Shown here: piece after piece, positions 20,030 to 63,000 of the stretch
Layout of the letters: each line of letters begins with the position of its first letter
Position numbering within the stretch: the first letter of the stretch is position 1
Assembly (NCBI GenBank): GCA_004764695.1
Contig: SMSO01000033.1
Span: 1,317,001 to 1,381,000 of the forward strand
From: Schizochytrium sp. TIO01
Taxonomy: Eukaryota > Sar > Bigyra > Thraustochytrida > Thraustochytriidae
DNA: 64,000 nt
Direction: 5' to 3'
Notes under the pieces: generated by a model
The model's database searches: none
What the model was told of the DNA's origin: nothing
The model's input: only the letters and a program-made list of their open reading frames with translations
Made by a program: the position numbers and the translations under genes

Positions 20030-21526
20030 ATGCCTGAGGAGCAAGATGGCCTCGAGGAGCGCCAGACGCTTCTGCAGGAGGACCAACAACAACGCCCGAC
20101 AGGGCGGAAGGGACTCTACAGGATGTTGACCATGGCAACTCTCGCCTTGGTTTCCGTTGTTTTCTGTGTTGGATTCCTTACAACGAGACAGCACCACATA
20201 TTACCGCAACGAAAAGCAGCCCTCGTAAAATTGCAAGAGCAGCATATGTTTGTAAACATGCATCGTGCAGTGCCTTCCGAAGAGGATCGTGTGCCAACAC
20301 AGGCCTGGTCCCAAGAAGAGGCCTTTGTGGAAACTCAACTGCAAGCACTCGGCAATACACTCCTCACAGCTGTGTATGAGAACTATAGCGTCTCGTCCTC
20401 ATCACAATCCACGAAGAAGGACGCAGACTGCTCTACATGCGACCCCACGCCTTTCTATATCAACCCTTCATGCGCCACCGTTTGCAAAGACCCGCATGGA
20501 CACGCCGCCAAATTATATTGCTGGCACTGCCGACACTGGGCGATCAACCTGAAGAGTGAAGCAGGACCGACTCCACGTTTAGCGCAGAGTATCCTAGATC
20601 TGCCTATTTTAGTTCATGTAGTCACGCTGGCGTCTAACCTTCTCCACGCAAATGGCCAGGAGCTTCATGATATGTTTGACAAACACAACCCAGGCTTTGC
20701 TTCTCTCGGAAAACTTGAAGTTGCTGACATTGCCCAGCGCCTTGGGGACATCGGAGTCCCTCTGTCCCAAGTCAACAGTTCAGGTGGTGGAGGAGGTATG
20801 GGTTTTCAGATTTATTGTAATAGCTCGCTTCTAGTTTCCCTAGGAGGTGGCGGAGGACAAGGATTTGCTCAAGATGCTAACGAGACTTCCTTTGGTGGTG
20901 GACGTGGCGCTGGTCTTCAAATTTACAGCAACAAGTCACAAATCGTGCCTCTGATCTCCTACGGAGGAGGGGCTGGAGGCGGAGTTAAACTCTCTCACAA
21001 CCAATCCGGCACCCACCTCACCAGTTCTGCTGGATCCTCTCCAGACGCGAAGAACCAAACCATACCTCAGGCAATTATTGATGAATTGCATTCGCACATG
21101 CGCGAGTGCTGGCAGCATGGGAATTTTACAGTTGTTGGTGGTGGTGGGCTTGGTGGTGGAGCACGAGGAACGCACGGCCTATCTTCTAGCGGGAGTGTCG
21201 CGTTTCGTTTCCAGGCTTTCCAGAACCCGTGTGCAGCGTCTTGCTTACCTGGAAACTTCCAATCACTAAACCAACCTCAGCAACTGCAAGAGCATGAGAA
21301 AACGAAACCAGCCAATCAGACAGTGCCTCACGCAAAATCTGTCGACCCTTTCCAAAACACCTGCGACACACGGAAACTTGCAAATGTAACAATCGCATGT
21401 GCAGAAGCATGTGACGACAAACCGTATGATACGTGCATGTGTCCATGCTTCCAGGAAGGTTTTCTCTATGAAACAGAATGCGAATGGGCGAAGCGAATTC
21501 ATTGCCAACCACCACCTCCTCAGTAG
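20030..21526 (+). CDS. Type II membrane protein with Gly-rich repeats and Cys-rich ends
   Basis: I do not recognise the family. The 498-residue frame starts at an ATG. A polar, acidic N-terminus of about 28 residues with an Arg/Lys cluster precedes one hydrophobic segment at about 31-51, so a type II signal-anchor with a lumenal or extracellular C-terminus is likely. The lumenal part has paired cysteines near 135-170 (CSTC, CATVC, CWHC) and a Cys-rich tail (CAASC, CAEAC, CMCPC). Between them lie runs of 4-5 glycines; two are followed by the similar motif GxQIYxNxS, giving an internal repeat of about 60-80 residues. Many N-x-S/T sequons (NYS, NSS, NET, NKS, NQS, NQT, NFT, NVT) sit in this half, which agrees with secretory-pathway exposure. 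A surface or Golgi role is inference. It is a clear single-exon gene with AT-rich flanks. Confidence 0.8.
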   Translation: MPEEQDGLEERQTLLQEDQQQRPTGRKGLYRMLTMATLALVSVVFCVGFLTTRQHHILPQRKAALVKLQEQHMFVNMHRAVPSEEDRVPTQAWSQEEAFVETQLQALGNTLLTAVYENYSVSSSSQSTKKDADCSTCDPTPFYINPSCATVCKDPHGHAAKLYCWHCRHWAINLKSEAGPTPRLAQSILDLPILVHVVTLASNLLHANGQELHDMFDKHNPGFASLGKLEVADIAQRLGDIGVPLSQVNSSGGGGGMGFQIYCNSSLLVSLGGGGGQGFAQDANETSFGGGRGAGLQIYSNKSQIVPLISYGGGAGGGVKLSHNQSGTHLTSSAGSSPDAKNQTIPQAIIDELHSHMRECWQHGNFTVVGGGGLGGGARGTHGLSSSGSVAFRFQAFQNPCAASCLPGNFQSLNQPQQLQEHEKTKPANQTVPHAKSVDPFQNTCDTRKLANVTIACAEACDDKPYDTCMCPCFQEGFLYETECEWAKRIHCQPPPPQ

Positions 21527-23943
21527 GACGCCCATCCACACCGTAAATTTTTTAATGTACCCTTTTTGTCTTCTCTAATCAAATCCGCCCATGCATTAAC
21601 CAACTTCAAATTACCTCACATTGCGTTAAGTTCGCACTCTTCCCATGTACCTCTTCATTACCCAAAACTTAGCTTTGCAAGGGTGACTAATCAGCGACCC
21701 TTTTCTCCATGGTTGCTAGAGACCTCGTCTCAATATATATAAACAGGAATTTCCACTGAAAGCTTGTAAAACTAAAGATATAGATTAGGAGCCCTTGGCA
21801 AAGCACAATCTTACAAATGATACAAAGTTAATCATAAGATTGCTTCTACGTAAGCAACCATAACCAAAAGTAATCTGAACTTTGAGATTAATGTATTGAT
21901 CGCGCAATTACACTTAATGCAGCCTTCACAGAAATCGCAAATCCCAAGGCTTCTTTTGTTCGGGATGAACTGAACGGCAGTTTACCTCGGTGGACTAGGT
22001 ACTCGCTTACTTATCCTTTATACGGGTCCAGATACGAATATGGTCTGCTAGAGGCTTGAAGAAGACTTGAAGAATGCTTCGTACGTGTCGGCCTTTAGAG
22101 TTAACATCCTACCATCCCTGCAATCGAACTCTTCAGTATACTGATTCATATTATCGTTTGTTAACATTTTTAAAAGATTCAAGATATGAAATGTAAGTGA
22201 AGAAGTTAGGTTCATTCGTCTCTTCGACTATCCTTTTAGATTCCACCATATTTGTTCTTTTCAACATTTATGTACATGTTCAGTTTATTTAAGTCCTTAG
22301 CTTTACCACCTCGCATTCAGTTGTTAGGTTTTAATGCTATGCAAAACTTAGTCATTTAGACTTACAATGGTACGCCAGCAACTCTAGCAATCCATTGCTA
22401 ATATTTCTTCTCGATATATTATTTTAGCAGTGGATCTAGGATCCTGAGATTATCAATCGAAGGGTTTTGTGGACAGTCCTTAGAACATTATTAGAAGTCC
22501 CAAACTAAAACGACGTGTATATGATGAGAATATGACTATCAGATACTACTGAAGTAATATACAGCTACTGCCTAACCTCACCTAACCTAACTCTTCTGTC
22601 CGACATCTTCTGTGTATTGTACTGACATGATACATTCATCCTTGCCTGTATCCAGACCCGAAACCCCAATAACTCATATATCATCCTCTTTCCCTTTCTC
22701 CTGAGTTCGCCATCCTTGTCAGACTATATCTGCACACGCTTCATACCAAAAGCTACTCTGCAATAGATGCAAAGATGTGAGACTAGGGAAACTAACAAGT
22801 GAAAGGATATCACACAATCAAGGAATTATGCAAGGACAATTTAACATGGTGGACGAGGAAACCTAACCTAACGCCTTGAGTTCTGCGTAAGAACGATGAA
22901 GCCTAACTTAGTTTGACTCTCCTATTAAACTATGATGCAGCCCACCTAGGCGTTTATTCCCAAGGCCAGCAGATCCCTATCTCTATACGCCTAAGTACAC
23001 TATGCGTTCTTAAGTTTTATCCTGTTTTCCAAGCTTGCCTAGTCAACCTCTAGCTGTTCAGGGATTAGCCTTTACCACAGCATCAACTAAGTGAGCATTG
23101 CGTGATCATCTCTTGAATAAATCTATACTTAGTATGCACACATGAAGTTTATACTGGGAAGTTTGGGGTTGTGAGTTCGAAAGAAAGATAAGTTTGAGAA
23201 ACGGCAATTGGAGTAGCAAGGAGATGTAACACTGGTAGGACCATAGGTAATCCATTATAAGCCTAATACTGGTTTTTTGAATATCACGATATTCTAATCT
23301 GCGGCTTCTCAAGCCACGGACTAAGAAGTTTGACTCAATCCTCAAGCACTTTCTTAATTGTAACAAAACGAGAAAATATCAATGATCTAGTATCAGTTGG
23401 AAATTCTAACTTTCTGATAAGTCCTTAGGTTGCCTCCCATATACTGGCTGTAATGGCTAGCTGTAAGACCTTGAATGCGTTCCCTAGGTAGGCTGGTCTT
23501 TGTCTCATATATTCAAACTCTTGATATACTCGATCTCTACATCTTGGCCATGCAATATACTCGATTGATATTCTTAAACTCCCAGCAAGTCACTTAAAGG
23601 GCTTAATGAGACAAAGGATCAGCGACTATGGAAAATTGAGCTGCTGGTGATTAAATTCATCTCTTCTTATTGACTATAATCAAAAAATAATCTACCCTCC
23701 AAGTTCGCCACATTTGCATTTCTTGCATTTGCATTTATGCCTTCCACAATTAATAATTATTTTTTTTTTATATATCTTCTTTTCTTTTTTTAAAAGTTAA
23801 ATTAAACTAGGAGGTAAGAAACGGTCAACCACCACAATGTATGCAGTGAGATGAATAATGAGAGCGCGGGAGTCAATTCCGCAAGGATTTCTTGAGCTCA
23901 CGGGCAGATAATTTGCTCGTAGGCTCTGTGTTTGCCAAATAAC
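21527..23943. other. Intergenic region, no gene seen
   Basis: About 2.4 kb of AT-rich DNA between two plus-strand genes. No frame exceeds 90 codons. Short CCTAACC runs near 22,575-22,592 and 22,860 are too few to be telomeric. A T-rich then A-rich stretch at 23,755-23,815 lies about 130 bases before the next ATG. Confidence 0.5.
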
Positions 23944-26016
23944 ATGCCGTTGGAGCCACCCTCTTCGACTGGTGCTGCTACAAGCCCAAGCGGGCTCCAG
24001 CATCTCGGAGTGCGCCAAGACTCGGCTGGTTTCCTGCGCCGCACGAGACCGGGGTCTGCGCAGTCACCAACAACGCCACGGGTGGCATCCGCAAGTGGAG
24101 AGCGAACGTCAGTAGTCACATCGCCAACTGGATACCGCAAATTTGACGAAGAAGATATCTCTCGGAGTGATCCCCGCGTGGAATCATCTTCCTTAGCTCA
24201 TTTGGCACTGGCACCTGCATCATCAAACAACCGCGAAGAAAACCATGGATTGGCCAATCCTTCTCCCCAAACCTCTGCAACGATCCTTCATGACAATAAT
24301 GACAAAACTAATTGCACACCTCGCATGAAGGAACTGTCAATCCGCGGAGCTCCGCCTTGGCTTCGTAGAGAACGAGATTTAGAACAGGAGTCACATCGCC
24401 CATGGCTTACCAGCGGCGAACTCTTCTATAGAGGAGGCTTTGAAGGCAGCCTATATTGCAAGGAGTGGTATGAAACGTTTGCAAACCAAGAGTTCCAGAA
24501 TTTCCTGAAAGATGGTCTTACTGACGTTGATGCCACAAGGCGCCATGATGCCACGGACGATGACCTTCGTACTGTACAAGACAGTGTAAAACGTCTTCAC
24601 GAACAGCGTATGCGAAAGCTCGCAGCGCGCCTTCGACATGTTGAAGGCTCTATAGAAGCAGCGCTCGGAAAATTCGAGACTCTTCATGATATTTCGCGAG
24701 CTCGCACGGAGGACCACCTAGCTATTGTTGATCAAAAGCTTCTTTCGCTTTGCGCTCTCTACGCTGCAAATATTGAGAAGGAGTGCGCTATTATCTCCTC
24801 TAATATGGCCTGGAAAGATAGAGAACACAAGCAACTTCTGGAGGAGCGTCAGCATACGCTTGCCCTGGAGGAATTTGGTCTGCACTTGTCGCATGAGACT
24901 GAAGGAAGAATCAATATGCGACGTCTTCCTCCGGACAACCCTCAGTATCAGAGGTGTAAACGAGCCACTTCGGAAAATATCAAAGGTGACTTTTTTGGAA
25001 AATCGTCAAACTATTCGGGCATAAAAGTGCTAGAAGTATTTAAAATTGAAAACAGACCAATGCTGCGCGAATTTCAGCATCACGCATCCAGTTTTAAGCC
25101 GGGTTCCGTCAAGGGGCTCTTCTGTGCTGTACCCCAAAACTGTCTTCCCAGACTGGCTGTAGAGGGCATGGGACGGGCTCAAACCTCAGAAGATGTTGAA
25201 GAGGTGTTAGCATCAACATTTCTACGAGCTCACACGGTAGCACTTGAGCCTGGAAGTGCCTCCATACCTGGAATTGCAGAGTCGCAGTACCTAGACAGCC
25301 TATCCGTCGAGTTTCCCAAACAATTTTCGCGTTATTCCACGATGGAAGAGTTTCGCAGCATGATGTCCGAGAAGATCCAACCAGAGAGCTTACAGTCGTC
25401 TGATGAAACCAACGGGCCGAGTAATGGTGGGAACCAGGCGCGCTATCTTGCACTTTGTCGTGTCATCATTGGCAACGCCTTCATGACAAGCGGAGAGTAC
25501 GAGGGCTTTCCGAAGGTCGATAAATCCACTGGCAATAAATTTGATTCGATTTTCAGTCCGGCACTTGACGAGTATCTCATTCTTCATGGCACGCACGTCT
25601 TACCTGAATTTCTTATTCGTTATGAATTCAATCCGCGGTTTAAGCCGGAATCTCCGCAACTGCAAACAGAGACGCTGTCCTCCCTCGAACCTGACTTTTC
25701 CACTGCGCAGGTATCCCTACAGCTCAATGAAATTCTTCATATGGGTGAGGATCTATCCACTCTTTTTAGAGCCAATCTAATGCCGGTCATGCCGAAGAGT
25801 GTTGCCATGCCAAATTTCCAGAGCAGCGAACGGAATCATCCTTCTCGCTCCTCACAACGTAAGAAAGCTTCAAAATTCACTCATGCTGCAGAAGTGCAGG
25901 CTGGTCGTGAGACCCTTCATTTCAATGCAGCTCGCCAGCGCGACGAGATTTGGGCAGCTCTCAGTAATGTCTTGCGTCAAGAGGAACCAGACTCAGATGA
26001 AGAAGACCAGTATTAA
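23944..26016 (+). CDS. Protein with degenerate PARP-like (ADP-ribosyltransferase fold) domain
   Basis: The protein is 690 residues from the first ATG; the frame continues four codons upstream only to a TTG. Residues 1-130 are Ser/Pro-rich and look disordered. Residues 160-320 are mostly helical and charged, possibly coiled coil. Residues about 357-562 resemble a PARP catalytic domain: the strand-helix start GIKVLEVFKIENRPMLREF, the LF...P.N.L..L...GM segment, YLALCRVIIGNAF, and the end DEYLILHGTHVLPEFLIRY, which matches the PARP segment carrying the catalytic glutamate (here Glu543). The HGT motif that holds NAD is replaced by Cys-Ala-Val (about 394-396), and the glycine-rich GxYF strand is not recognisable. 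The tail is basic, then acidic. I infer a pseudo-enzyme or a strongly altered transferase. The same-strand neighbour starts 523 bases downstream. Family assignment is moderate, from motif order only. Confidence 0.6.
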   Translation: MPLEPPSSTGAATSPSGLQHLGVRQDSAGFLRRTRPGSAQSPTTPRVASASGERTSVVTSPTGYRKFDEEDISRSDPRVESSSLAHLALAPASSNNREENHGLANPSPQTSATILHDNNDKTNCTPRMKELSIRGAPPWLRRERDLEQESHRPWLTSGELFYRGGFEGSLYCKEWYETFANQEFQNFLKDGLTDVDATRRHDATDDDLRTVQDSVKRLHEQRMRKLAARLRHVEGSIEAALGKFETLHDISRARTEDHLAIVDQKLLSLCALYAANIEKECAIISSNMAWKDREHKQLLEERQHTLALEEFGLHLSHETEGRINMRRLPPDNPQYQRCKRATSENIKGDFFGKSSNYSGIKVLEVFKIENRPMLREFQHHASSFKPGSVKGLFCAVPQNCLPRLAVEGMGRAQTSEDVEEVLASTFLRAHTVALEPGSASIPGIAESQYLDSLSVEFPKQFSRYSTMEEFRSMMSEKIQPESLQSSDETNGPSNGGNQARYLALCRVIIGNAFMTSGEYEGFPKVDKSTGNKFDSIFSPALDEYLILHGTHVLPEFLIRYEFNPRFKPESPQLQTETLSSLEPDFSTAQVSLQLNEILHMGEDLSTLFRANLMPVMPKSVAMPNFQSSERNHPSRSSQRKKASKFTHAAEVQAGRETLHFNAARQRDEIWAALSNVLRQEEPDSDEEDQY

Positions 26017-26539
26017 GTATCCTCTTCATTTATGAAACTTGCTTGTTTTGATTTTATTCTAATAAATTATGTACACATGTGCTTTTCGTTTCAATTAAAT
26101 CTTGGATTCCTCTTTTGAAAAGTATCACAAAAGCATCTTCGATACGATGTACGCTTATTCGAAAAAAAGAAAAGAAAAAAAATGACTTTCCATAATTATT
26201 TGTATTTCATCATAGCAATGAAACCTTCGTCTGACTGGACAACCGTCATTACCTGCTACCATTACATACTTCTTCATTTCAGTCTATCACACTCAACCAA
26301 GTCCCAAAGAAGTCAGTTCTCCTAAATACATTTGTCTGATGTTAAGACTGTCTAAGGTAATCAATAGTAGTAATACTAGTCTCCCTGATGTGGTATAAAG
26401 TGACCACCCCTTGACGGTTGCACGCCGAGCAACCTCCAAAACATCTTAAATCAGTAAACTTTCACTATCGCTCGATCAGACATCAAATCAATTTTTGCAA
26501 GTCAGCTCAGAACTGGCAATCACAGCAACTCACTCTGCA
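26017..26539. other. Intergenic region / promoter of the KNL1-like gene
   Basis: About 520 bases between two plus-strand genes. It holds the 3' flank of the PARP-like gene, with AATAAATTATG-type AT-rich sequence that could serve polyadenylation, and the promoter of the next gene. No frame of note. Confidence 0.4.
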
Positions 26540-27904
26540 ATGGCAGCGACGGCGCTAAGCAGTGACGGCCTACGGCAGTTTGCGGAGGATCTGTCACCTC
26601 TGGAATCGCCCTTCAGTAACCGGTCTGTGCAATGTACAGACATAGTGAGCGCCTTCGAGGTATCTCGCGAAGCGTGGTCCGGAGGAGACGTTGGCGAGGA
26701 AAACCGCATACGTTCACGACGTGATGAGCTTCGCAAAACAATGATTGAGCTGGAGGCGCAGCAGCTTTTGGTGGAGAAACTCTTTGAGTTTCAGGCCCAA
26801 GGCCACGTCCATGAAGGTGCTCTTGAGGTTTTGCAGGACGGAGAACGTGCAGCTGTGGCTAAAGTAGCCGAAGCTCGTGAAAAATTCACTGCGCTGCAAA
26901 ACAAGGTTCAAGATGCCTCGACGAATTTGACCGAGCTCATCGGAACGTACGAAGATCGCCGCCATGAACTGGTTGCCAAACTCAAGGGCCTACGGCAAAC
27001 TCTGGCGGACGAGATGCCAGAAGGTCTCAATGATCTCAGCGCAGAGGCATGTGAAGAGCTGATTGAGAAAGAAGTTGCAGAGATGCAGAGCTTAAACGAG
27101 CGACGCAAAACCTTGCAAGATACCTCCGCATCCGCAGAAGCTCGTGTTGCAGACCTGCAAACAGAGACTGAAAAACTCACGGAACAAGCACAGGCTGTGG
27201 AAGCTGCACTTCAAGCTGCCGAGGAGCAAAGCCCAGATGATCAGATGTCGCAAGTTCAAGAAAAGCTTGCGTGGGTTAACGAGGTCCGGAGCATGCTTGA
27301 TAGCATCACTGGGGTTACTGTGAGTGATTTTCAAGAAACCTCGTTTGTTGTACAGGCTTCGGGCGAGAATTTGCGCGTTCAACTTTTTTTCGACCCAGAA
27401 ACATCTCTTCTCACTGATGCAAAGGTTTCATCTCTCTCAGGTAATGATGCTGATGATCCTAAAGCCCTTTATGCTCGTCGCAGAGACCTGCACGCTCGTG
27501 TACTAGAAGAGGCAGTTCGTAGGAATGACATCCGCTTCCTTGTACGTGAACTCCGTGAAAGCGTTCGATGTGGTCGCGCTTTGGATAAAGAGCTAACAGT
27601 ACTCCGGCAAACTTGTCCTGTCAGTGTTGCAGACACGGAAGTCATAGTTACATTGCCTGAAGGTATTGTTGCTACCTTTGAAGTTGGTCTTTCCTACCCA
27701 CGTCCGTATGCCGCTGCTCGTCTCACATCAATGGAAGCTTTCAATGGCTGGAAGAAGAGTCTTATGACGGAAACCGTGGAGTTTGTGCAAAAAGAGCAAT
27801 GTAAACGCCGTCACGACCTTTACACGTTGAGTGCGCTAACACAGCTAATCCGTGATCGGATCGAAGCTGTTCAAGCTGAACAGACAAAGGATGCCGCCAA
27901 ATAA
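26540..27904 (+). CDS. KNL1/Spc105-like kinetochore protein (coiled coil plus tandem RWD-like domain)
   Basis: The protein is 454 residues from the first ATG; the longer frame begins at TTG, which is unlikely in a nuclear gene. Residues about 55-255 form a long heptad-like coiled coil rich in Glu, Ala, Leu and Gln. Residues about 256-395 follow the layout of the tandem RWD domain at the C-terminus of KNL1: a first beta unit (SFVVQASGENLRVQLFFDPE), long helices (ALYARRRDLHARVLEEAVRR and FLVRELRESVRC), then a second beta unit (EVIVTLPEGIVATFEVGLSYP) and a helical tail. In the KMN network KNL1 uses this part to bind Mis12 and the checkpoint scaffold. The long N-terminal part with MELT repeats and a PP1-docking motif, typical of animal and fungal KNL1, is absent here; I see no MELT-like repeat. 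Another RWD kinetochore protein is the main alternative. Confidence 0.5.
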   Translation: MAATALSSDGLRQFAEDLSPLESPFSNRSVQCTDIVSAFEVSREAWSGGDVGEENRIRSRRDELRKTMIELEAQQLLVEKLFEFQAQGHVHEGALEVLQDGERAAVAKVAEAREKFTALQNKVQDASTNLTELIGTYEDRRHELVAKLKGLRQTLADEMPEGLNDLSAEACEELIEKEVAEMQSLNERRKTLQDTSASAEARVADLQTETEKLTEQAQAVEAALQAAEEQSPDDQMSQVQEKLAWVNEVRSMLDSITGVTVSDFQETSFVVQASGENLRVQLFFDPETSLLTDAKVSSLSGNDADDPKALYARRRDLHARVLEEAVRRNDIRFLVRELRESVRCGRALDKELTVLRQTCPVSVADTEVIVTLPEGIVATFEVGLSYPRPYAAARLTSMEAFNGWKKSLMTETVEFVQKEQCKRRHDLYTLSALTQLIRDRIEAVQAEQTKDAAK

Positions 27905-35201: not shown

Positions 35202-35272
35202 AGCGTCAGCCGGGAATCGAACCCGGGGCAGCCGCATGGCAAACAGCTATTTTACCACTAAACCACTAACGC
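35202..35272 (-). tRNA. tRNA-Gly (GCC), array copy 1
   Basis: A full cloverleaf on the minus strand: acceptor GCGTTAG/CTGACGC with one G-U pair, an A box of the form TGGTTTAGTGG, an anticodon loop TTGCCAT with anticodon GCC, a B box GGTTCGATTCC, and discriminator T. It is 71 bases with the discriminator and no intron. The 3' flank gives TTCC then a T5-T6 run, a Pol III terminator. Upstream lies a hairpin AACTCA/TGAGTT (35278-35297). Confidence 0.97.
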
Positions 35273-35380
35273 AAATTAACTCAACTATCGCTGAGTTGGG
35301 AGACCGGTATCCTACAGTTCCATATACTGTAAACTATACAGGAGCTCACAAACAAAAAGTTATATCAAAGTTAAAAAGGA

Positions 35381-35451
35381 AGCGTCAGCCGGGAATCGAA
35401 CCCGGGGCAGCCGCATGGCAAACAGCTATTTTACCACTAAACCACTAACGC
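35381..35451 (-). tRNA. tRNA-Gly (GCC), array copy 2
   Basis: Identical body to copy 1, placed 179 bases from it. It has GCC anticodon, discriminator T and a T-run terminator after TTCC. Its 5' flank carries the conserved ACTCAGTTATTACCGAG element. Confidence 0.97.
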
Positions 35452-35556
35452 AGATACTCAGTTATTACCGAGTTGGAGTACCAAGGCCCAAAGTTCAATA
35501 TACGTTTCCCTTTACGTGAGCTTACAAACAAAAAGTTATATCAAAGTACAAAAGGA

Positions 35557-35627
35557 AGCGTCAGCCGGGAATCGAACCCGGGGCAGCCGCATGGCAAACA
35601 GCTATTTTACCACTAAACCACTGACGC
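35557..35627 (-). tRNA. tRNA-Gly (GCC), array copy 3
   Basis: Same tRNA body, except the acceptor 5' strand reads GCGTCAG, giving a fully Watson-Crick acceptor with CTGACGC. It is 176 bases from copy 2. This copy ends the first array and lacks the conserved hairpin element upstream. Confidence 0.97.
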
Positions 35628-35764
35628 AGATTTTAGCTCATTTAAGAACCTGTTAAAGAATTTTGGTTAGTACAATTTAGAGTGTTAGTATAAAAAAAGA
35701 TTAAAAAATATATATTGAATATATATAAAAATCATGTATCGACTAATGTGAGCATTGATTTAAT

Positions 35765-36403
35765 ATGGTAAACGGGAGTGACCTACAACTTGATAACCGG
35801 GTGATAAAGACGTTAGACTTGTTGGCTTCAATCCTCTTTCTTTGTATCCAAGTTTATTCACGCCGGAGCTGTAAAGAAGCAGTTGCATCTTGCAGTGGTA
35901 GGCGTTTGAGAATCATTTTGATTTTAATAAAATTGATTGCACTAATTCTTTGTATGCTACATGTCAATACTACAATTACGGAAAAAGCTTCTGATTCTGC
36001 ATCACTCGCGGTTGTATGTGCATTGAATATACTCTATTTTCATAGCCAAAAACAGAGTGCAATTAATGCGTTCCGTGACACTCTTGGCTCCCTGGTCGAT
36101 GAGATAGAACTCGTTGCAAGTTTTGTTGGATTGACTCAAATAAACCCTCTACATATGGTGTTGCAATCGATCGTTGTATTTTTAATTCTAGTAGAGATCA
36201 TGCTGACTTGGAAGGAAATGGATCGCTCAAGCTTGATCGAACTCATGCTACGAATTTGTAAGTGCCTGGTGTACAAATACGAGAAAGTCTCTTTACTTAT
36301 AAACATGGCAATCTCGTTCGTTGAAATACTTAAGAATGCGGGCTTCCTTCCTCTAGTTGATACTCAAGACTCTGATGCACAGAAGCCTGGTCAAGTTGTT
36401 TAA
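35765..36403 (+). CDS. Small multi-pass membrane protein, possibly PEX11-like
   Basis: The protein is 212 residues, starts at ATG and has no recognised paralogue here. Hydrophobic segments lie at about 17-35, 50-67, 80-92, 130-150 and 182-200, separated by short Arg/Lys stretches, so it is probably integral to an organelle membrane. Size, an N-terminal amphipathic helix, a central loop and a C-terminal KYEKVSLLINMAISFVEIL-type segment loosely recall PEX11 peroxisome-division proteins, but I see no diagnostic motif, so this is a suggestion only. It is lower in GC than the other genes and is embedded between the two tRNA-Gly arrays, on the opposite strand to most of them. A lineage-specific membrane protein is equally possible. 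Confidence 0.6.
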   Translation: MVNGSDLQLDNRVIKTLDLLASILFLCIQVYSRRSCKEAVASCSGRRLRIILILIKLIALILCMLHVNTTITEKASDSASLAVVCALNILYFHSQKQSAINAFRDTLGSLVDEIELVASFVGLTQINPLHMVLQSIVVFLILVEIMLTWKEMDRSSLIELMLRICKCLVYKYEKVSLLINMAISFVEILKNAGFLPLVDTQDSDAQKPGQVV

Positions 36404-36916
36404 TCTTTTTGCCATATCTGCATGTGATTATTTAAATAAATTTAAAATTTAAAATCATTCTGCCTCGTAGGAAAGCGAGCTTATTTTTATATTATAATGA
36501 TATAGTATTACTTTGCTTTCTACTTCCATTCATATTGTGCCTCATAAAAATGAGCTCAACTGGTTCCTATCTTTTATCCTCCCCACGCAAATTTGTAAAC
36601 AGGCAAGAACGCGAAATGCGCAGAACAGCAGTACTTACGTCTTCGAAAGTATGTGCCTGCTGCTTGCTACTACTAGGATCGTTTTAGCTTGCCTTAACCT
36701 TGGTGGGGAAGATTTCTTGGTATGTTTCCATTGCAAGTTCGCTAAAACCAAATAGCATAAACAAAAGCAAAGAGTGAACAGGATAGTATTCCTTGATTGG
36801 ACTTCCCCACACAGATTATGTAGGTGTCTTAAAGTCATCATTGACTTACAATTAGTCAATAATTGTTATACGTTGTTGGAAAATGAAATGTCGTAACGTC
36901 GTAATCTGACTTCGAT
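36404..36916. other. Intergenic region before the plus-strand tRNA-Gly
   Basis: About 500 bases of AT-rich 3' flank of the membrane-protein gene. The 80-codon frame at 36513-36755 is not convincing. No array-type hairpin element lies upstream of the following tRNA. Confidence 0.4.
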
Positions 36917-36987
36917 GCGTCAGTGGTTTAGTGGTAAAATAGCTGTTTGCCATGCGGCTGCCCCGGGTTCGATTCCCGGCTGACGCT
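36917..36987 (+). tRNA. tRNA-Gly (GCC), only plus-strand copy
   Basis: A full tRNA-Gly with anticodon GCC, a perfect GCGTCAG/CTGACGC acceptor and discriminator T. It is followed by TCTCTTTTT as Pol III terminator. It is inverted relative to the eight other copies and shares their body but not their flanks, so it seems to have arisen separately from the tandem amplification. Confidence 0.97.
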
Positions 36988-37344
36988 TCTCTTTTTGCAA
37001 TCAGATGCGCTTTATACCATTACACTTTGTAGTATAAGCGATGGGGCTTGGAAGCTACATGTTTTTACTTTTGGTATTTTTTTCAATCGCTAGGTATCAT
37101 CAACACATCTTCTTTATTATTCAAAGAAGTAAAGAAAAACCTGGATTCTCACAGCGGTCAGCTTTAATTTCGCACTCAACATCATTTAAATATTAAAGTA
37201 ATTCCTCTTGGTTTCAACGTTTTGCAAATGTTTTAATTCTCCAACCTACTTCTGTTTTAAAACGGAATCAATGAAAAGAAAAAAAAAAAGAATGGCACCA
37301 AAATTGAGTATTTAGCAATGGCCTAGCTCAGCAACAAAAAGATA
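36988..37344. other. Spacer between inverted tRNA-Gly copies
   Basis: About 360 AT-rich bases with an A-run near 37,275-37,290. No gene is seen. It is flanked by tRNA-Gly genes in opposite orientation, so their 3' ends face each other. Confidence 0.4.
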
Positions 37345-37415
37345 AGCGTCAGCCGGGAATCGAACCCGGGGCAGCCGCATGGCAAACAGCTATTTTACCA
37401 CTAAACCACTAACGC
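37345..37415 (-). tRNA. tRNA-Gly (GCC), array copy 5
   Basis: Same body as copy 1, with the first-array type acceptor GCGTTAG. Downstream flank TATCTTTTT is the terminator. The upstream element reads ACTCAGATATTAACGAG. It begins the second tandem array. Confidence 0.97.
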
Positions 37416-37523
37416 TGAGGTACTCAGATATTAACGAGTCTGGAGACCAGAATCCTTTAGTGCTATATAATTTTAATGTACGTGAGCTCACAAATAGAAA
37501 AGTTATAAAAAGGTCAAAAAGGA

Positions 37524-37594
37524 AGCGTCAGCCGGGAATCGAACCCGGGGCAGCCGCATGGCAAACAGCTATTTTACCACTAAACCACTAACGC
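37524..37594 (-). tRNA. tRNA-Gly (GCC), array copy 6
   Basis: Same body, 179 bases from copy 5. It has terminator TTCC plus a T5 run, and the upstream ACTCAGATATTAACGAG element shared with copy 5. Confidence 0.97.
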
Positions 37595-37699
37595 AGGTAC
37601 TCAGATATTAACGAGCTGGGGTTGCGAGTTCTGCAGTGCAATATATTGTTCGTTTTACGTAAGCTCACAAACAAAAAGTTATATCAAAGTTAAAAAGGA

Positions 37700-37770
37700 A
37701 GCGTCAGCCGGGAATCGAACCCGGGGCAGCCGCATGGCAAACAGCTATTTTACCACTAAACCACTAACGC
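37700..37770 (-). tRNA. tRNA-Gly (GCC), array copy 7
   Basis: Same body, 176 bases from copy 6. Its downstream flank is nearly the same as that of copy 2 in the first array, which suggests that the two arrays derive from one unit. Confidence 0.97.
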
Positions 37771-37876
37771 AAATGCACTCAGTTATTACCGAGTTGGAGT
37801 AATAAGTTCTGCAGTTCAATATAACTTTCGATTTACGTTAGCTTACAAACAAAAATCCATATAAAAGATAAAAAGA

Positions 37877-37947
37877 AGCGTCAGCCGGGAATCGAACCCG
37901 GGGCAGCCGCATGGCAAACAGCTATTTTACCACTAAACCACTAACGC
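37877..37947 (-). tRNA. tRNA-Gly (GCC), array copy 8
   Basis: Same body, 177 bases from copy 7. The upstream element here forms a perfect 6-bp hairpin, ACTCAG/CTGAGT with a 6-base loop (37954-37971). Confidence 0.97.
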
Positions 37948-38056
37948 AGATGCACTCAGTTATTACTGAGTTGGAATAAGAAGTTCTGCAGGTCTATATA
38001 ATTGTCGCTTGAAGGAAGCTTACAAACAAAAATCCATATTAAAAATAAAAAAAAGA

Positions 38057-38127
38057 AGCGTCAGCCGGGAATCGAACCCGGGGCAGCCGCATGGCAAACA
38101 GCTATTTTACCACTAAACCACTAACGC
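38057..38127 (-). tRNA. tRNA-Gly (GCC), array copy 9
   Basis: Same body, 180 bases from copy 8, last of the second array. The terminator is TTC then a long T run. The upstream element reads ACTCGGACATTACCGAG, with a CTCGG/CCGAG stem. Confidence 0.97.
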
Positions 38128-56315: not shown

Positions 56316-59300
56316 TTACTTTGTACCTTTACGACCATTGCGATGACGGAGGTCCTGAATAGCACAGCCAACGGTCTCGAGCAGCCATTCAAACTTGTAG
56401 AATTTCGCGACATTATGGTAAGGTCGTAGAACCATCTCCTGATCCTTCGGAGGCAATGTCATGATCCACTCGCCTGAGCAAGCACAGGAGGAGCTCAAGA
56501 CGCTTGCCCGAACTTGACCGCACTTAATGCACTCCATGTCTTGCAGTTCATAGGCTTGAACAAGATCCTCCACGGAACGAATTAAGCGGTGTTCAATGCC
56601 AGCCATATCAAACATCTGAGAACACTCAGGGCAATGCCATGGCACAGTAACATTGGGGTCCTCCGCTGACAATTGACCCTGGACTAATGCAGAATCTCTG
56701 CACAGGTCAAAATCAACAGCGGCATTACAATGAGCACAAACAACATCACGCAAATAAAGCATCACAGACGGGTTATGAAACTTAGCCTCTGGTGAAAACT
56801 CACGCACATGAAGTAAGCGAAACAATTGTTTCTTGGAGTTTTGGACTTGATGGTGAACTTGGCCATCTAAGCTTAGCACAACAACCAAGGTTTTCACAAA
56901 CTCTAACGCCGGATTTCGGTATAAAAGATGAGATCCTGCCAGCTTGGGGAAGCTCTCGGGGCCAAGGCCTGACATGGTGATTCGTGGTACAAGTCTCAGT
57001 AGCTCTGAAACAACCTCTTCTCGAAGCATCTTGGAGATGAATTCCTTTTCAAGAGCCTCAAGCTCTCCTTCATTTACCCGAAGCAAAGCCATTTCGTCCA
57101 GGTCTTGTGCATCGTCATCGAGGCCTCCATTCATCTTCTTGTCCGGATCTGCACCCATTTCATCTTTGAGTTTGCGGATTTGAGCTTCAAACCATTCTTC
57201 GCGCATTTCAACTGGTTTGAGAAGAAACGCGCCAATGTAGAGCTCAAAGTACTTTTGCAACTCCTCGGGAAGGTACTTTGCCACGTCCCACTCAAGAATC
57301 AGACTGTGCTTATAAGGAGGACGTGCGGCCTCCATGAGGGCCTCTTCATCCTCATCACGACCTTGATGACCAAAGAATGAATCGCCATCATCGTCAACAA
57401 TGAAGTCATCCAAGTCTTCTGCCTCGTTAAGTTCGACTTCGCGAGATAGTTCGTCACGACCTTTGCCACGGGAACGCTTGGGACCACGGGACATCATGAT
57501 ACGCTTCTTAAGCTTGGTCACGCTTTCCTCCAAATCATCGTCATCAGAATCATCGTCGTTAGAATCACTCTCCTCAACATAATTCTTGACCTCATCCGCA
57601 GATTCCTCGTCTTTTTCAAAATCAGAATTGACCCCGCCATCATCGCTCTGAGCCCTCTTCTCTTCCTCGACGATCTTCTTGTTGTGTCCAGTAATTACGT
57701 TGTTGTTCTCATCAGATTCACTATCATTTTCTTCTTCGTCATCACTTGACTCTCCATGGCCTGCGCCCTTACGCAAAAGGCGACGTTTGTGGCCTGAGGT
57801 AGAGGCCACCTTCTTTTCCTTCTCCTTGTTTTTCTTCTCGATAGCTGCGGAAGAACTGGTATTCTTGGCTGCCGCACGATCTTTTGATGCTTGCAGTCGT
57901 GTTTCTTCACGTTCTTTGCGACGAGCCTGTCGACGCTCGTAGACTTCAAGTTCTTCTGCATATGTAGGATTGTCTTGAACAGCGCCGTAATTAGCATCAT
58001 CCATGAAGATCAGAGACTTCCAAGTGTCTGACGTTTCCAGCTCAATATCCTCAAACAAGGATTTTGAACGGACCGTGTTGATGACATGCTCGATATATGC
58101 TGATGCGGATTCAGCATCCCGCTTGCCAGTGCAAATAATGATTCGCTGGAAGTTTGCAGATACGATTTTGGCGCCCAGGCGACGAAGTTCCGCCACAAGT
58201 TGAAGAAAGACTTTAACCATCAGCTGCTGAATAAATCGAAGCAAGGCTGGGTCATACATCAAACTCTTGGGCGAACAAATCCAGCGATAAAAGTTCGCCA
58301 ATAACGCCCAAGAGTAATCTTCATTTGTTTGCAAGGCCTCACGGAAAATGCGCCGTACTAATCCACGCAATATGTTAAAGGCATTAAGACATTCAGCTGC
58401 TGACCCTAAGACCCCAGTAGCAGCATGTACTTTAGCTTGCACAACAGCACCTGCAGCGTCAAGACGTTGGGTGCCACCATCAGGAGCAAGAGCACCGATG
58501 GAGTGCTGCTCCAGAGCCATAGATCCTTCTGCGCACTCAATATCGTGCACTTCGTTTGCGTGAATCATAGTATTCACTGCAAGATGTTTGATTGAAAATA
58601 CAGCACAGTAGGAACGGTACGCGCCGGGTGAAGAAATGTTTGGAAGCTCTTCTGCAGCAAGCAAGGCGTTGTCCGCGGAGTCAGACTCCATACCTCCAAG
58701 ATCAGGTGTGCACGCAGGAGAGGCCCATGAAACATGAAGATTACGGGCCAAATTTCGCATATACATGACATCCATCATGGTGACAGCGTAATCATCATTC
58801 AAATGCGCAACTGGAATTTGCGCGTAGTGAGCACAGCGCATGCGCTCAAAGAGCCATAGCGAGTGTGAAAAATACTGTTTCACAGCTTCATCCACAAGAT
58901 AGTGCTGCCACTGCAACGAAGGGAGAACAGCAGCGTCTGGTCGTGCAAACATCCAAATACATGGGCATCGTCCAAGAGGACGCGAGAGATTGAGCAGTTC
59001 GCGTTTGGGAAGAGAACTATGTACCACCGCAGTAAGAGCACCGCTCACTTCATCAAATAACGTTGTCAGCTGATTGTTCACACTTCGCCAAAGAGCAGCC
59101 TCATTGGCAACCGTAAGAACCTCAGCATGCGCAACGCAAGAACGAAGCGCAGCTGCATAAAATGTGCCTGACTCCTTCTCACAGGAAAGCAGGAAGTCTT
59201 TCACAGCCTTACGAAGACTTGGCCGCTCCACACTTCCTTCACGACCCTCGAGCCATGCATGCATTCGCATGGATGTAGGAGCTAAACTGAGCAAGTGATC

Positions 59301-60017
59301 AACATAATCGGTGCTGTTCTCCTTGTGCATGGCCTTCCATGCAACCTTTGCTAGTTCGTTAGATGTTTGATCAATTGTAAATAAAATGACAGCTCGGCGA
59401 CGTGGAGCGCCACCAACGTAAAGAAAGAACCGTTTAAATGATGCACCAGAGCCGAGGAGGTAAGGAGTTACGACTCGTGGTACTCGTTGAATCTCGGACA
59501 TTGTGAACGGCTTGTTGGCAGTACCATCACCCGAAAGGTTTTTCCCGTTGACAGAAATCACACAGCCAAGATCATTCAGAATGCGGGTCTCCATCGGTAT
59601 TTGCATCTCATAAACTCCTGCAACATTTGGCTGCTCTAGGATATCAGCCATAGCTTTGGCGTGCTTACGCAAGTATGCTTCAGGCGCTTCCAACATGTAG
59701 AGATTCTCAGGAGTATGAGAATGAGGAAGCTTCCACCGTGCAGCACCCTTGACATCAAGCCACGCTGGTGCTTCTGCTGGATTACAAGGTTCACGAGAAT
59801 TCAGAAAGAAGGTGCGACTGACACTCATGTATAACACGCGAATCTCATCTTTCTTTTCTGGAATAACGTACAGCTTGTAGTTGCCAGGTTTCTCCATAGC
59901 TCGAACCTCCAGCACTTGAAGATAGTTAAAAGAAGTAAGATCTTCGCGTCTCTGTACAAATCCTTCTAGTCCATTGCGAAGATTAAACGTTTGCTCAGCG
60001 GTTCCATTGGCAACAGC
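56316..60017 (-). CDS. POLE: DNA polymerase epsilon catalytic subunit, C-terminal part (second frame)
   Basis: This frame continues POLE after a one-base offset. It is open with no stop from before 60017 (GCT GTT GCC) down to the stop at 56316, about 1,233 residues. It reads NLRNGLEGFVQRREDL and NYLQVLEVRAMEKPGNYKLY, which align with the family's linker after the catalytic core, then the inactive B-family polymerase module that holds the holoenzyme together. Near the end come the two zinc-binding modules: CysA (CAHC ... CPEC) and CysB (CIKCG ... SCACSGEW), and the family's last helix. A long acidic and basic low-complexity insertion (about 57,310-57,960, roughly 215 residues) interrupts the inactive module. 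No ATG opens this frame near its start, so it is not a separate gene. Confidence 0.9.
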   Translation of the reverse strand, partial: AVANGTAEQTFNLRNGLEGFVQRREDLTSFNYLQVLEVRAMEKPGNYKLYVIPEKKDEIRVLYMSVSRTFFLNSREPCNPAEAPAWLDVKGAARWKLPHSHTPENLYMLEAPEAYLRKHAKAMADILEQPNVAGVYEMQIPMETRILNDLGCVISVNGKNLSGDGTANKPFTMSEIQRVPRVVTPYLLGSGASFKRFFLYVGGAPRRRAVILFTIDQTSNELAKVAWKAMHKENSTDYVDHLLSLAPTSMRMHAWLEGREGSVERPSLRKAVKDFLLSCEKESGTFYAAALRSCVAHAEVLTVANEAALWRSVNNQLTTLFDEVSGALTAVVHSSLPKRELLNLSRPLGRCPCIWMFARPDAAVLPSLQWQHYLVDEAVKQYFSHSLWLFERMRCAHYAQIPVAHLNDDYAVTMMDVMYMRNLARNLHVSWASPACTPDLGGMESDSADNALLAAEELPNISSPGAYRSYCAVFSIKHLAVNTMIHANEVHDIECAEGSMALEQHSIGALAPDGGTQRLDAAGAVVQAKVHAATGVLGSAAECLNAFNILRGLVRRIFREALQTNEDYSWALLANFYRWICSPKSLMYDPALLRFIQQLMVKVFLQLVAELRRLGAKIVSANFQRIIICTGKRDAESASAYIEHVINTVRSKSLFEDIELETSDTWKSLIFMDDANYGAVQDNPTYAEELEVYERRQARRKEREETRLQASKDRAAAKNTSSSAAIEKKNKEKEKKVASTSGHKRRLLRKGAGHGESSDDEEENDSESDENNNVITGHNKKIVEEEKRAQSDDGGVNSDFEKDEESADEVKNYVEESDSNDDDSDDDDLEESVTKLKKRIMMSRGPKRSRGKGRDELSREVELNEAEDLDDFIVDDDGDSFFGHQGRDEDEEALMEAARPPYKHSLILEWDVAKYLPEELQKYFELYIGAFLLKPVEMREEWFEAQIRKLKDEMGADPDKKMNGGLDDDAQDLDEMALLRVNEGELEALEKEFISKMLREEVVSELLRLVPRITMSGLGPESFPKLAGSHLLYRNPALEFVKTLVVVLSLDGQVHHQVQNSKKQLFRLLHVREFSPEAKFHNPSVMLYLRDVVCAHCNAAVDFDLCRDSALVQGQLSAEDPNVTVPWHCPECSQMFDMAGIEHRLIRSVEDLVQAYELQDMECIKCGQVRASVLSSSCACSGEWIMTLPPKDQEMVLRPYHNVAKFYKFEWLLETVGCAIQDLRHRNGRKGTK

Positions 60018-63000
60018 CTTCTTTCTGTGCCTTGTAGCGTTCCTGGCGTGTACGCCACATCTTCTTGCGACTTGCTAGCCAGCCGTCAAAGTCTTGAGGT
60101 TCTTTGTCATTTCTTTCATCTTCTTCCTCATCGTCTTCATCCTCTTCGTGTCCTAACTCATGACCATCTGAAACAGCACCAGAGTCGCTGTTACTGCCAT
60201 CCTCAATGTCCATGGAATCATCCTCAATGGGCTTTGGCTTTGACTTTTTCTTCCCTTCCTTATCGCTTCCTGCATTGGACTCCAGTAAGTCCTCGATGTC
60301 AGCAACCTTAGGAGTTGTTGTATTCTTCAGCTTCGAGCCCGTCTTAAAGAGGTTTGTAAGCTTACTCTGCTTGAAGCGGTCGTTCTTCTCGCGCACATCT
60401 CGCAAGAGCCAATCAGGGTGTTCAATGCGTGGAACTGGGTTTGCAACATTTTGCAAGGCAGCTGGAATTGTAATAATCTTTTGCACGGCCTTGCCTAATC
60501 GTTCAATATAGTAATCCCAATCGACAATAGAGCGTACATCGAAGTCGGTGATAGAATTGTCGCGAAGCCAACGTCGGAGAGCCTGGCGCTTGACATCCTC
60601 GCTGAGTGAGAAAATAACAGCAGGAATGGCGCGCGAGGTGGTCATTTCACCGACTGGTTGACGTGCAATCAGCAACTTGCAATTCAGACCTGCATCACGG
60701 ATCATTTCAGCACCAAAGATTTCAGATAGGCGCAAAGCGGTGGTCATAGCCACAGACTTTTGGTCACCATAATCAGCAACTTTTCGACTCATGGAGCGAT
60801 TCTCACTAATCAGATCGATAAGCTCCTCATCACTCAAGTCTTTACCACGTGTGAAAAGCACGTCTAGCCAAAAGTTTGCAATTTCTGCCACAGCGTCATA
60901 ACATTCATTCAAAGATGAGCCAAGTAAGAACTTCTCAAATACTTGACTTTGGAAAATCTTGATGATTTTCAGCTCACCACGACGCTTCAGTTCAAAGCCT
61001 TTGAGCTCTGCTAGGGAGCCGTCATGGTTAAACACCGCATAACGTTTTTTCAGTAATTTACCTTCCTCCTGAGAGGCTGGCAGAACCATGCAACGGTACG
61101 GCCCATCAACTTCAAAGTAAATGCAACATTCACTACGAGTGTCATACTGAAGACGCTTCGGATCCACCAAGGTTTGATATTGGTCATTAGTAAAGTGAGC
61201 ATGAACATTAGCATTGAGCATGACACATGGGTATGAGATTGGGATTTTGCGACCAGATGCAGTCTTGAATGCGAAGTTCTCTGGGAAGCTTGCTGGTAAA
61301 ATACACCAAATACCATCAGTATCGAGCTCAAGTGGGCGGCCAATTCTTTCCACTAATTGGCGAGCTTGCTTAATGATGTTAGCTCCGGTATGTGTCACAA
61401 TACCAGCCATTTCCATAGAATGCCAACGGGCTCCTTTGCGCATCACATAACCATAGAATGAGTTAAGAATACACTTGTGGGCCAGCTGAAGGGAATCATA
61501 GAGCAACACTTTGTTACGCGCTTCGTCAAGAGCTAAAGGATCCACATTGGCAGATCCAGTCTCGAGCTGCTTTTCCACAGTAGCCTTTTGTTTCGACCAC
61601 TTCTTAGTTAGTGCTTTGTAATCGTAACGTCGATCACGGAAAGCCTTGATCGTGTCAACATAAAAGGAATTTTCGCGCTGACAAATAGTAGCTGTCTTCT
61701 TAGAGATTTCGGTATCTTTAACACGCTTGTATACTGTCTGCGAGTAGGTCTTAATACGTTGACGAAGTAGGCGGTTACGTTCGCCGCGAGGTAGCTCATG
61801 ATAGGGCACACCATCTACTTGCTCATACTCAAGCTGAGTTTTGATAGATTGAAACTCAGATTTTTTCGCAGGATAATATTCACCACGCCAGACCCAATCC
61901 ATGTTTCGTTTGCAAGTTGCGTTTGGCCCGGTATTGAATGAGCACGAGGCACAATCTGTCTCATTCACAATGGCACTTGGCTGCAAACGGTTTGTCAAAA
62001 TAATGTTTGGATACATAGCTGCCACATCTAAGTGATAGATAGTGGGTGTCTCTAAACGAACGGGTGTATCTCTCAACATTTCAAGAGCTTCTACAATCTC
62101 GCTTCGTACTTCATCGTAATTGATAACTTCACGACGGGGTGTACCAGTCTCAATTTCAACAGCAAATGTTAGATCTCGATCAATGTTAGCAATGAGTTCA
62201 TCGAAAGCCCCAGGATCTAATCTAAACTTTTCAGGCAAATCATCTCTATAAACTCCTGTCTCCAAACATTCAACGTGGCCACCCACATACGTATCCTGCT
62301 CAAGTAGCTGACCCTTGTCAGTGAACTTTTGAGCAGCTTCGACTTGCTTGTTAGGACAGAGGATATTTCCGTGACGTGCCTCAACCATGAGAAGCATCTC
62401 GCAGAGGGTACCCGAACCTTTACGGAGTACATCCTCCGCGTTGAGCGGAATAATTGTACACAGCGAAAAAATAAACAGGTTGATATACTTGTCGAAGAGA
62501 TAGTAAGTTGCGACAGCATCGGACACGGAATACGATGCCATATGGTGAGGTCTTTCGCGCGCAAACCGCACCATGTCTTCTGGATCTACCTCTACGGGGT
62601 CATAACCAAGCTTTGCTTTTGTAACAGCCTTCAGACCGCGTGAACCAGCTGGCAAGTAGGAATCACGGTTTACCCAGTACAGACAATCAATGTGCACTGA
62701 GCAGCGGCCACGGTACTCACCCTCACGGTTCGCACCTACACCAGTCTCATTACGCAAGTCCATGTCGTATGTAGCAGCACGTTTCTCAATGAATGGCCAA
62801 TCAAAAAAGTCACCGTTGTAGGTGACCCAAACGTTTGGACGCAACTCACGGCAGTGCTCAAAAAATCGTCGCAAGGTAGCCTCCTCGTCAGGTTCGTTCA
62901 TGACCTCAAAAGGTCCGGCATACTCGGGCTTTGGAGTATATTCAAAGTCCTCAATATCTTCAGTCACAACTTCGCGATTGATGATCAAATAGCCCTGGCC

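Follow-up and report, generated by a model that had tools for sequence, protein, structure and literature searches.

A divergent, probably RCD1/SRO-type PARP-like protein, a candidate pseudo-ADP-ribosyltransferase, in Schizochytrium sp. TIO01

The locus and its surroundings

The window, a 64,000-nucleotide stretch of a Schizochytrium sp. TIO01 contig, contains an open reading frame at 23944..26016 on the plus strand, which encodes a PARP-like protein of 690 amino acids and starts at the first ATG behind an in-frame TAG at 23920. There is no internal stop in the 23944-26016 frame, while the other five frames contain 17–47 each, and the codon log-likelihood is highest in the ORF frame (0.043, versus −0.066 to −0.137 elsewhere; 14 further loci of the genome, each represented by its longest open frame, supplied the codon reference, and some of these loci overlap or are near copies). 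The segment located 5′ of the ORF (23700-23930) is partly AT-rich, and an exon may lie upstream of the ORF start.

The N-terminal segment of the protein, residues 1–130 (23944..24333, plus strand), is rich in Ser, Pro, Thr and Ala (20, 13, 12 and 12 per 130 residues, respectively) and, judged from this composition, is probably disordered. It is followed by a charged middle segment, residues 131–327 (24334..24924, plus strand), which has no family match, scans of these residues with Pfam and NCBIfam giving nothing significant, and which by inspection is probably helical. The PARP-like (ART) domain spans residues 328–565 (24925..25638, plus strand), and its second half is firm while its first half is tentative.

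Several other features are found in the window. The 498-aa ORF upstream of the PARP-like gene (20030-21526, plus strand) is without any Pfam match at E-values up to 1, while the next long ORF downstream (26495-27904, plus strand) is kinetochore KNL1-like, matching Knl1_RWD_C at E 2.2e-5 with 25.1 bits (Pfam cut-off 27.8). Nine tRNA-Gly(GCC) genes are clustered at 35202-38127. Eight lie on the minus strand and are grouped into two arrays, one of 3 genes and one of 5, in which the spacing is 176–180 bases, and the ninth is on the plus strand at 36917; a 277-base segment from one array recurs at 90% in the other. The catalytic subunit of DNA polymerase epsilon is encoded on the minus strand at 56316-63990 across two adjoining ORFs, one comprising the exonuclease, polymerase and thumb (59995-63990) and the other comprising DUF1744 and the zinc fingers (56316-59915), which are probably one gene with an intron. 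Elsewhere in the genome, which was searched as 64,063,054 bases on 37 contigs, the omega-3 PUFA synthase PfaA is matched over cut-off with its neighbours in frame, and the chlorophyll-binding family Chloroa_b-bind has no match. A synthase of this kind is a hallmark of thraustochytrids, and the two results agree with a non-photosynthetic thraustochytrid genome.

The C-terminal half of the domain and its affinity to RCD1

By sequence comparison, residues 497–563 are homologous to the C-terminal half of the PARP catalytic domain. A phmmer search of residues 322–575 against all PDB chains retrieves RCD1 (5ngo), an Arabidopsis stress regulator related to the ADP-ribosylating enzymes, at E 1.4e-5, and PARPs make up the whole list to E 10, 28 of 28 distinct sequences (one RCD1 and 27 tankyrase sequences); the best tankyrase has an E-value of 0.034, and only RCD1 falls below 0.03. 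With the full-length protein as query, 15 of 16 PDB matches are PARPs, all inside residues 497–577, and the single non-PARP is a designed helical protein matching residues 165–232. The Smith-Waterman score of the C-terminal half against RCD1 is 102, which is reached by none of 1000 shuffles, and hhalign aligns the same half to an 8-member PARP profile (RCD1 and Ta-sro1 being among the members) at E 7.7e-12, with none of 60 shuffles scoring as high. The earlier note had recognized the last third of PARP domains in the segments DEYLILHGTHVLPEFLIRY (residues 542–560) and YLALCRVIIGNAF (residues 501–513), and this match is borne out by phmmer, Smith-Waterman and hhalign, all of which score above chance.

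Specifically, the strand RYLALCRVIIGN (residues 500–511, 25441..25476, plus strand) is common to RCD1, where it reads RYMVLCRVIMGN. The last strands, LDEYLILHGTHVLPEFLIRYEF (residues 541–562, 25564..25629, plus strand), align with tankyrase-2 without a gap at 10 of 22 identical residues, a score reached by none of 10000 shuffles, and because of this gapless register Glu543 (25570-25572) is assigned to the catalytic Glu position. The sole HG[ST] sequence of the protein, a literal HGT at residues 548–550, belongs to this late part of the domain and stands opposite RGE in tankyrase-2; its position in the last strands rules it out as the NAD motif.

Among the PARPs compared, the domain is nearest to RCD1 in sequence. 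A search of the whole genome with RCD1 identifies a single place, this locus, at E 6.4e-5, with one candidate scored. When the reference is a profile built from RCD1 and wheat Ta-sro1, the hhalign score is 52.8 (E 9.9e-8), compared with 23.6 for the best of 100 shuffles and 26.5 for the best of five PARP domains from the same genome. Furthermore, the Smith-Waterman scores of the C-terminal half decrease from RCD1 (102) through tankyrase-2 (75) and PARP12 (48) to PARP10 and Ta-sro1 (44 each), and are 33 for each of three PARPs from the same genome, a value matched by 9–14 of 200 shuffles. Strict SRO membership is disfavoured, because Ta-sro1 scores only 44, the same as PARP10. An unrooted tree of nine rows splits the protein, RCD1 and Ta-sro1 from the six others with support of 100/98, a grouping that we take as a hint only, because the branches are few and long and may attract each other.

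PF00644 matches 12 places of the genome over cut-off (E <= 0.001); they are distributed over 11 open frames, all on contigs other than that of the window. Profiles built from these PARPs align over the C-terminal half in hhalign at E 0.011 (3 members) and 2e-4 (5 members). In HMMER they perform no better than 500 shuffles: shuffles take the first five rows with 3 members, and with 5 members the protein ranks first at 5.6 bits, the best shuffle having 5.4. The search of the genome for paralogues returns only the protein itself and an E 0.93 match to a locus that by inspection encodes phosphoglycerate kinase (L010), and no relatives were found in the viral and prokaryote genome collections scanned. 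Two of the PARP domains of the genome (L011 and L012) carry IHFA and IHFS in place of the usual Gly-x-Tyr-Phe-Ala, which places a His at the Tyr position; the best PDB match of L012 is PARP12.

Compared with the RCD1/SRO proteins (PARP Clade 2), the protist protein is most similar over residues 497–563 (RYxxLCRVIxGN ... THxxPEFxxRxxx), and His-Gly-Thr is replaced in both. It differs in its non-plant host and in its layout, in which neither the WWE domain that forms the N-terminus of type A SROs nor the C-terminal RST domain was found. In particular, a Pfam scan of the protein gives no WWE, and the genome contains three WWE matches up to E 1 (two pass the cut-off), distributed over contigs C34, C30 and C36, while the window is on C32; a single weak WWE_5 match is on C36. 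RST is likewise absent from the Pfam scan of the protein, and the genome search for it gave no match, as did its control. WWE is unusual in PARP1/2-type proteins, and one locus that by inspection is of this type (L004, G000:C34:1746419-1749979; PF00644 at 120.5 bits) has a WWE (E 1.1e-7) before the catalytic domain in an 841-aa frame. The tankyrases, which carry ankyrin repeats, are the second-best match and share the gapless catalytic-Glu strand. Unlike the protist protein, they are H-Y-E polymerases, as tabulated in PMC7955679.

The N-terminal half of the domain and the altered motif

The match of the N-terminal half of the domain is far weaker. Pfam PF00644 has no match to the domain up to E 10; in the control, the same profile gives 31.2 bits for RCD1 and 22.1 bits for Ta-sro1, at a cut-off of 26.7. 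No PARP is found when the N-terminal half alone is compared with the PDB, and in Smith-Waterman comparisons 580 of 1000 shuffles score at least as high against RCD1 and 488 of 1000 against Ta-sro1. The hhalign score against the 8-member PARP profile, 17.7, is marginal, 2 of 60 shuffles being as high. Two single-sequence AlphaFold2 predictions have mean pLDDT values of 36.5 and 33.9, too low to indicate any fold. The earlier note had named a PARP profile match over residues 357–562 as its check; PF00644 gives no match there, and more sensitive comparisons recover residues 497–563. By homology, a PARP (ART) domain is supported for the C-terminal half and stays tentative for the N-terminal half, where PF00644 is silent, Smith-Waterman remains at shuffle level and hhalign is equalled by 2 of 60 shuffles.

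A weak, collinear alignment of the N-terminal half to PARP domains is obtained with hhalign at a low confidence threshold and with MAFFT, and runs through LPPDN (328), KVLEVFKIEN (361), LFCAV (392) and IAESQYLDS. In this alignment the tentative donor segment is FCAVPQNCLPRLAVEGMG (residues 393–410, 25120..25173, plus strand), with Cys394-Ala395-Val396 at the position of His-Gly-Thr. Cys394 (codon TGT) is positioned under the motif His in both alignments to the 8-member profile (hhalign and MAFFT). The best ungapped placement of the RCD1 donor segment WLPAKREVLSAVMMQGLG in the protein is also FCAVPQNCLPRLAVEGMG, with a score of 17 and the next placement at 11; 260 of 5000 shuffles of the N-terminal half equal or pass this score. 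When MAFFT is run with RCD1 and Ta-sro1 only, prolines are aligned and the register shifts by two residues, so that Val396 falls under the motif His and Asp451 under the Tyr, and a global hhalign alignment to RCD1 places the N-terminal half out of order.

The Tyr of the triad can be assigned only tentatively. Both 8-member-profile alignments place Tyr449 (25288..25290, plus strand) there, at an alignment strength without statistical support; the alternatives are Asp451 (25294-25296, plus strand), from the MAFFT alignment with RCD1 and Ta-sro1 only, and His430 (25231-25233, plus strand), chosen by eye. On the two 8-member-profile alignments, the triad thus reads Cys394-Tyr449-Glu543. It is clear from the aligned sequences that no HGT or HGS stands at the expected place of the motif, and we tentatively suggest that the N-terminal half adopts the NAD-binding part of the fold and that Cys394-Ala395-Val396 replaces His-Gly-Thr in it. 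The three residues that the earlier note had read at the HGT position are indeed present; their placement there is plausible yet unproved, because the alignment with RCD1 and Ta-sro1 only puts Val396 at the His position. Its statement that the Gly-x-Tyr-Phe strand is gone is correct for the motif, but IAESQYLDS is aligned at that place, and the strand with Tyr449 is perhaps kept.

A probable pseudo-ADP-ribosyltransferase and its rivals

In the PARP triad, the two riboses of NAD are contacted by different residues, that of the adenine being gripped by the His and that of the nicotinamide being stacked on by the Tyr, while the Glu serves as general base (PMC9614482). According to the same source, neither RCD1 (Leu-His-Asn) nor Ta-sro1 (Leu-His-His) binds NAD+, and RCD1 still functions when its cleft is mutated. 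At the Glu position, occupied by Asn in RCD1 and by His in Ta-sro1, the protist protein has Glu543, and it probably has Cys-Ala where RCD1 has Leu-Pro. A parallel for the retained Glu is Arabidopsis PARP3 (AtPARP3), in which Cys replaces the triad His and Glu is kept (Cys-Val-Glu), and which is reported in PMC6701155 to be inactive and not to bind NAD+. AtPARP3 differs in being of PARP1 type, with BRCT, WGR and regulatory domains and Cys-Gly-Ser, and it belongs to another clade.

Given the precedents of AtPARP3, RCD1 and Ta-sro1, the Cys-Ala site together with the kept Glu therefore points to a pseudoenzyme. We consider it probable, at roughly 60%, that the protein is a divergent RCD1/SRO-type PARP-like protein acting as a pseudo-ADP-ribosyltransferase. 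Loss of the His that grips the adenine ribose would prevent normal NAD use, and an interaction module is favoured over an enzyme because this cofactor-gripping motif is altered. The domain would then act as a protein-interaction module, while motifs for partners or for targeting would reside in the disordered N-terminus and in the helical middle. The model for such a module is RCD1, whose PARP-like domain is required for localisation to nuclear bodies (PMC10115779) and for which transferase activity was not found; by analogy, the protein may serve as an interaction module in this organism too. A pseudo-ADP-ribosyltransferase with HGT replaced and the late Glu kept had already been suggested in the earlier note, and it is the best-supported reading; the suggestion overlooked both the RCD1/SRO proteins, known to be inactive and to have lost HGT, and AtPARP3. 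Its alternative of a re-engineered active site gains nothing positive from the analysis.

The retained Glu543 speaks against a dead site, since a long-dead site need not keep it, and it is in gapless register with tankyrase-2. Together with Tyr449, which falls at the Tyr position in both 8-member-profile alignments, it could belong to an active, unusual mono-ADP-ribosyltransferase in which Glu543, perhaps with Tyr449, is catalytic and the role of the His has passed to Cys394 or another residue. Such an enzyme would have company: Arabidopsis SRO2, in which Ala replaces the Gly and the His and Tyr have changed places, is reported in PMC9614482 to be an active mono-ADP-ribosyltransferase, and PARP9 (Q-Y-T, QQV) is tabulated with mono activity in PMC7955679. 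However, AtPARP3 with the same Cys and Glu is inactive, and changing H-Y to C-V in AtPARP1 (giving C-V-E) inactivates the enzyme, although NAD+ is still bound in the assay (PMC6701155). Furthermore, the His at this site is termed essential in PARP1 (PMC9614482), and the Tyr assignment is weak, as the MAFFT alignment with RCD1 and Ta-sro1 only differs. We therefore regard an active enzyme as quite unlikely.

A PARP C-terminal half joined to unrelated sequence is unlikely as well, if somewhat less so. Residues 497–563 would be homologous, the part preceding them would not be an NAD-binding half, and Cys-Ala-Val at HGT would be meaningless. This agrees with the confinement of the significant signal to residues 497–563, with the failure of the N-terminal half to find a PARP and with the silence of PF00644; against it, the weak match of the N-terminal half is collinear in hhalign and MAFFT (LPPDN, KVLEVFKIEN, LFCAV and GIAESQYLDS), and the C-terminal half would hardly be able to fold alone. 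A relation to TASOR, a chromatin-silencing factor, was also considered. Hydrophobic triplets stand at HGT in the human ARTs TASOR (LMV), TASOR2 (VVA) and TEX15, and TASOR2 retains the Glu (V-T-E), as tabulated in PMC7955679, which makes TASOR and TASOR2 pseudo-ART candidates for how such a protein may work. However, DUF3715 does not match the protist protein and gives a single weak match in the whole genome (E 0.098, contig C30), and the PDB search gives only RCD1 and tankyrases. TASOR identity was rejected on the DUF3715 results, and a TASOR-type pseudo-PARP is very improbable.

For the divergent RCD1/SRO-type pseudoenzyme that we favour, the unusual part is the presence of an RCD1-type domain outside plants; the lost motif has precedents, including C-x-E in AtPARP3. 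Clade 2 (RCD1/SRO) was described as restricted to land plants in papers from 2010–2014 (PMC2964712, PMC2848248 and PMC4245714), at a time when, according to PMC2964712, streptophyte algal genomes were lacking. In PMC11766942, PiPARP1 and PiPARP2 of Phytophthora are described and RCD1 and SRO are unmentioned. Our literature search, which covered few subscription papers, found no report on RCD1-type PARPs in stramenopiles and none on PARP domains in thraustochytrids, and among the papers on Aurantiochytrium and ADP-ribose none has PARPs in its title.

It is possible, though doubtful, that the RCD1-type domain is no invention of land plants. The protein would then represent an early or transferred stramenopile version, C-Y-E, between the tankyrase-like H-Y-E enzymes and the L-H-N pseudoenzymes of plants, and would be used in a different interaction hub, without WWE and RST. 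If its likeness to RCD1 is only the convergence of a rapidly evolving pseudo-PARP, the finding matters little. Why SROs retain a PARP domain is named as an open question in PMC9614482. If the lineage proposal is true, a non-plant relative with the Glu would provide an outgroup for this question and would test when, and in which order, the residues of the triad were lost.
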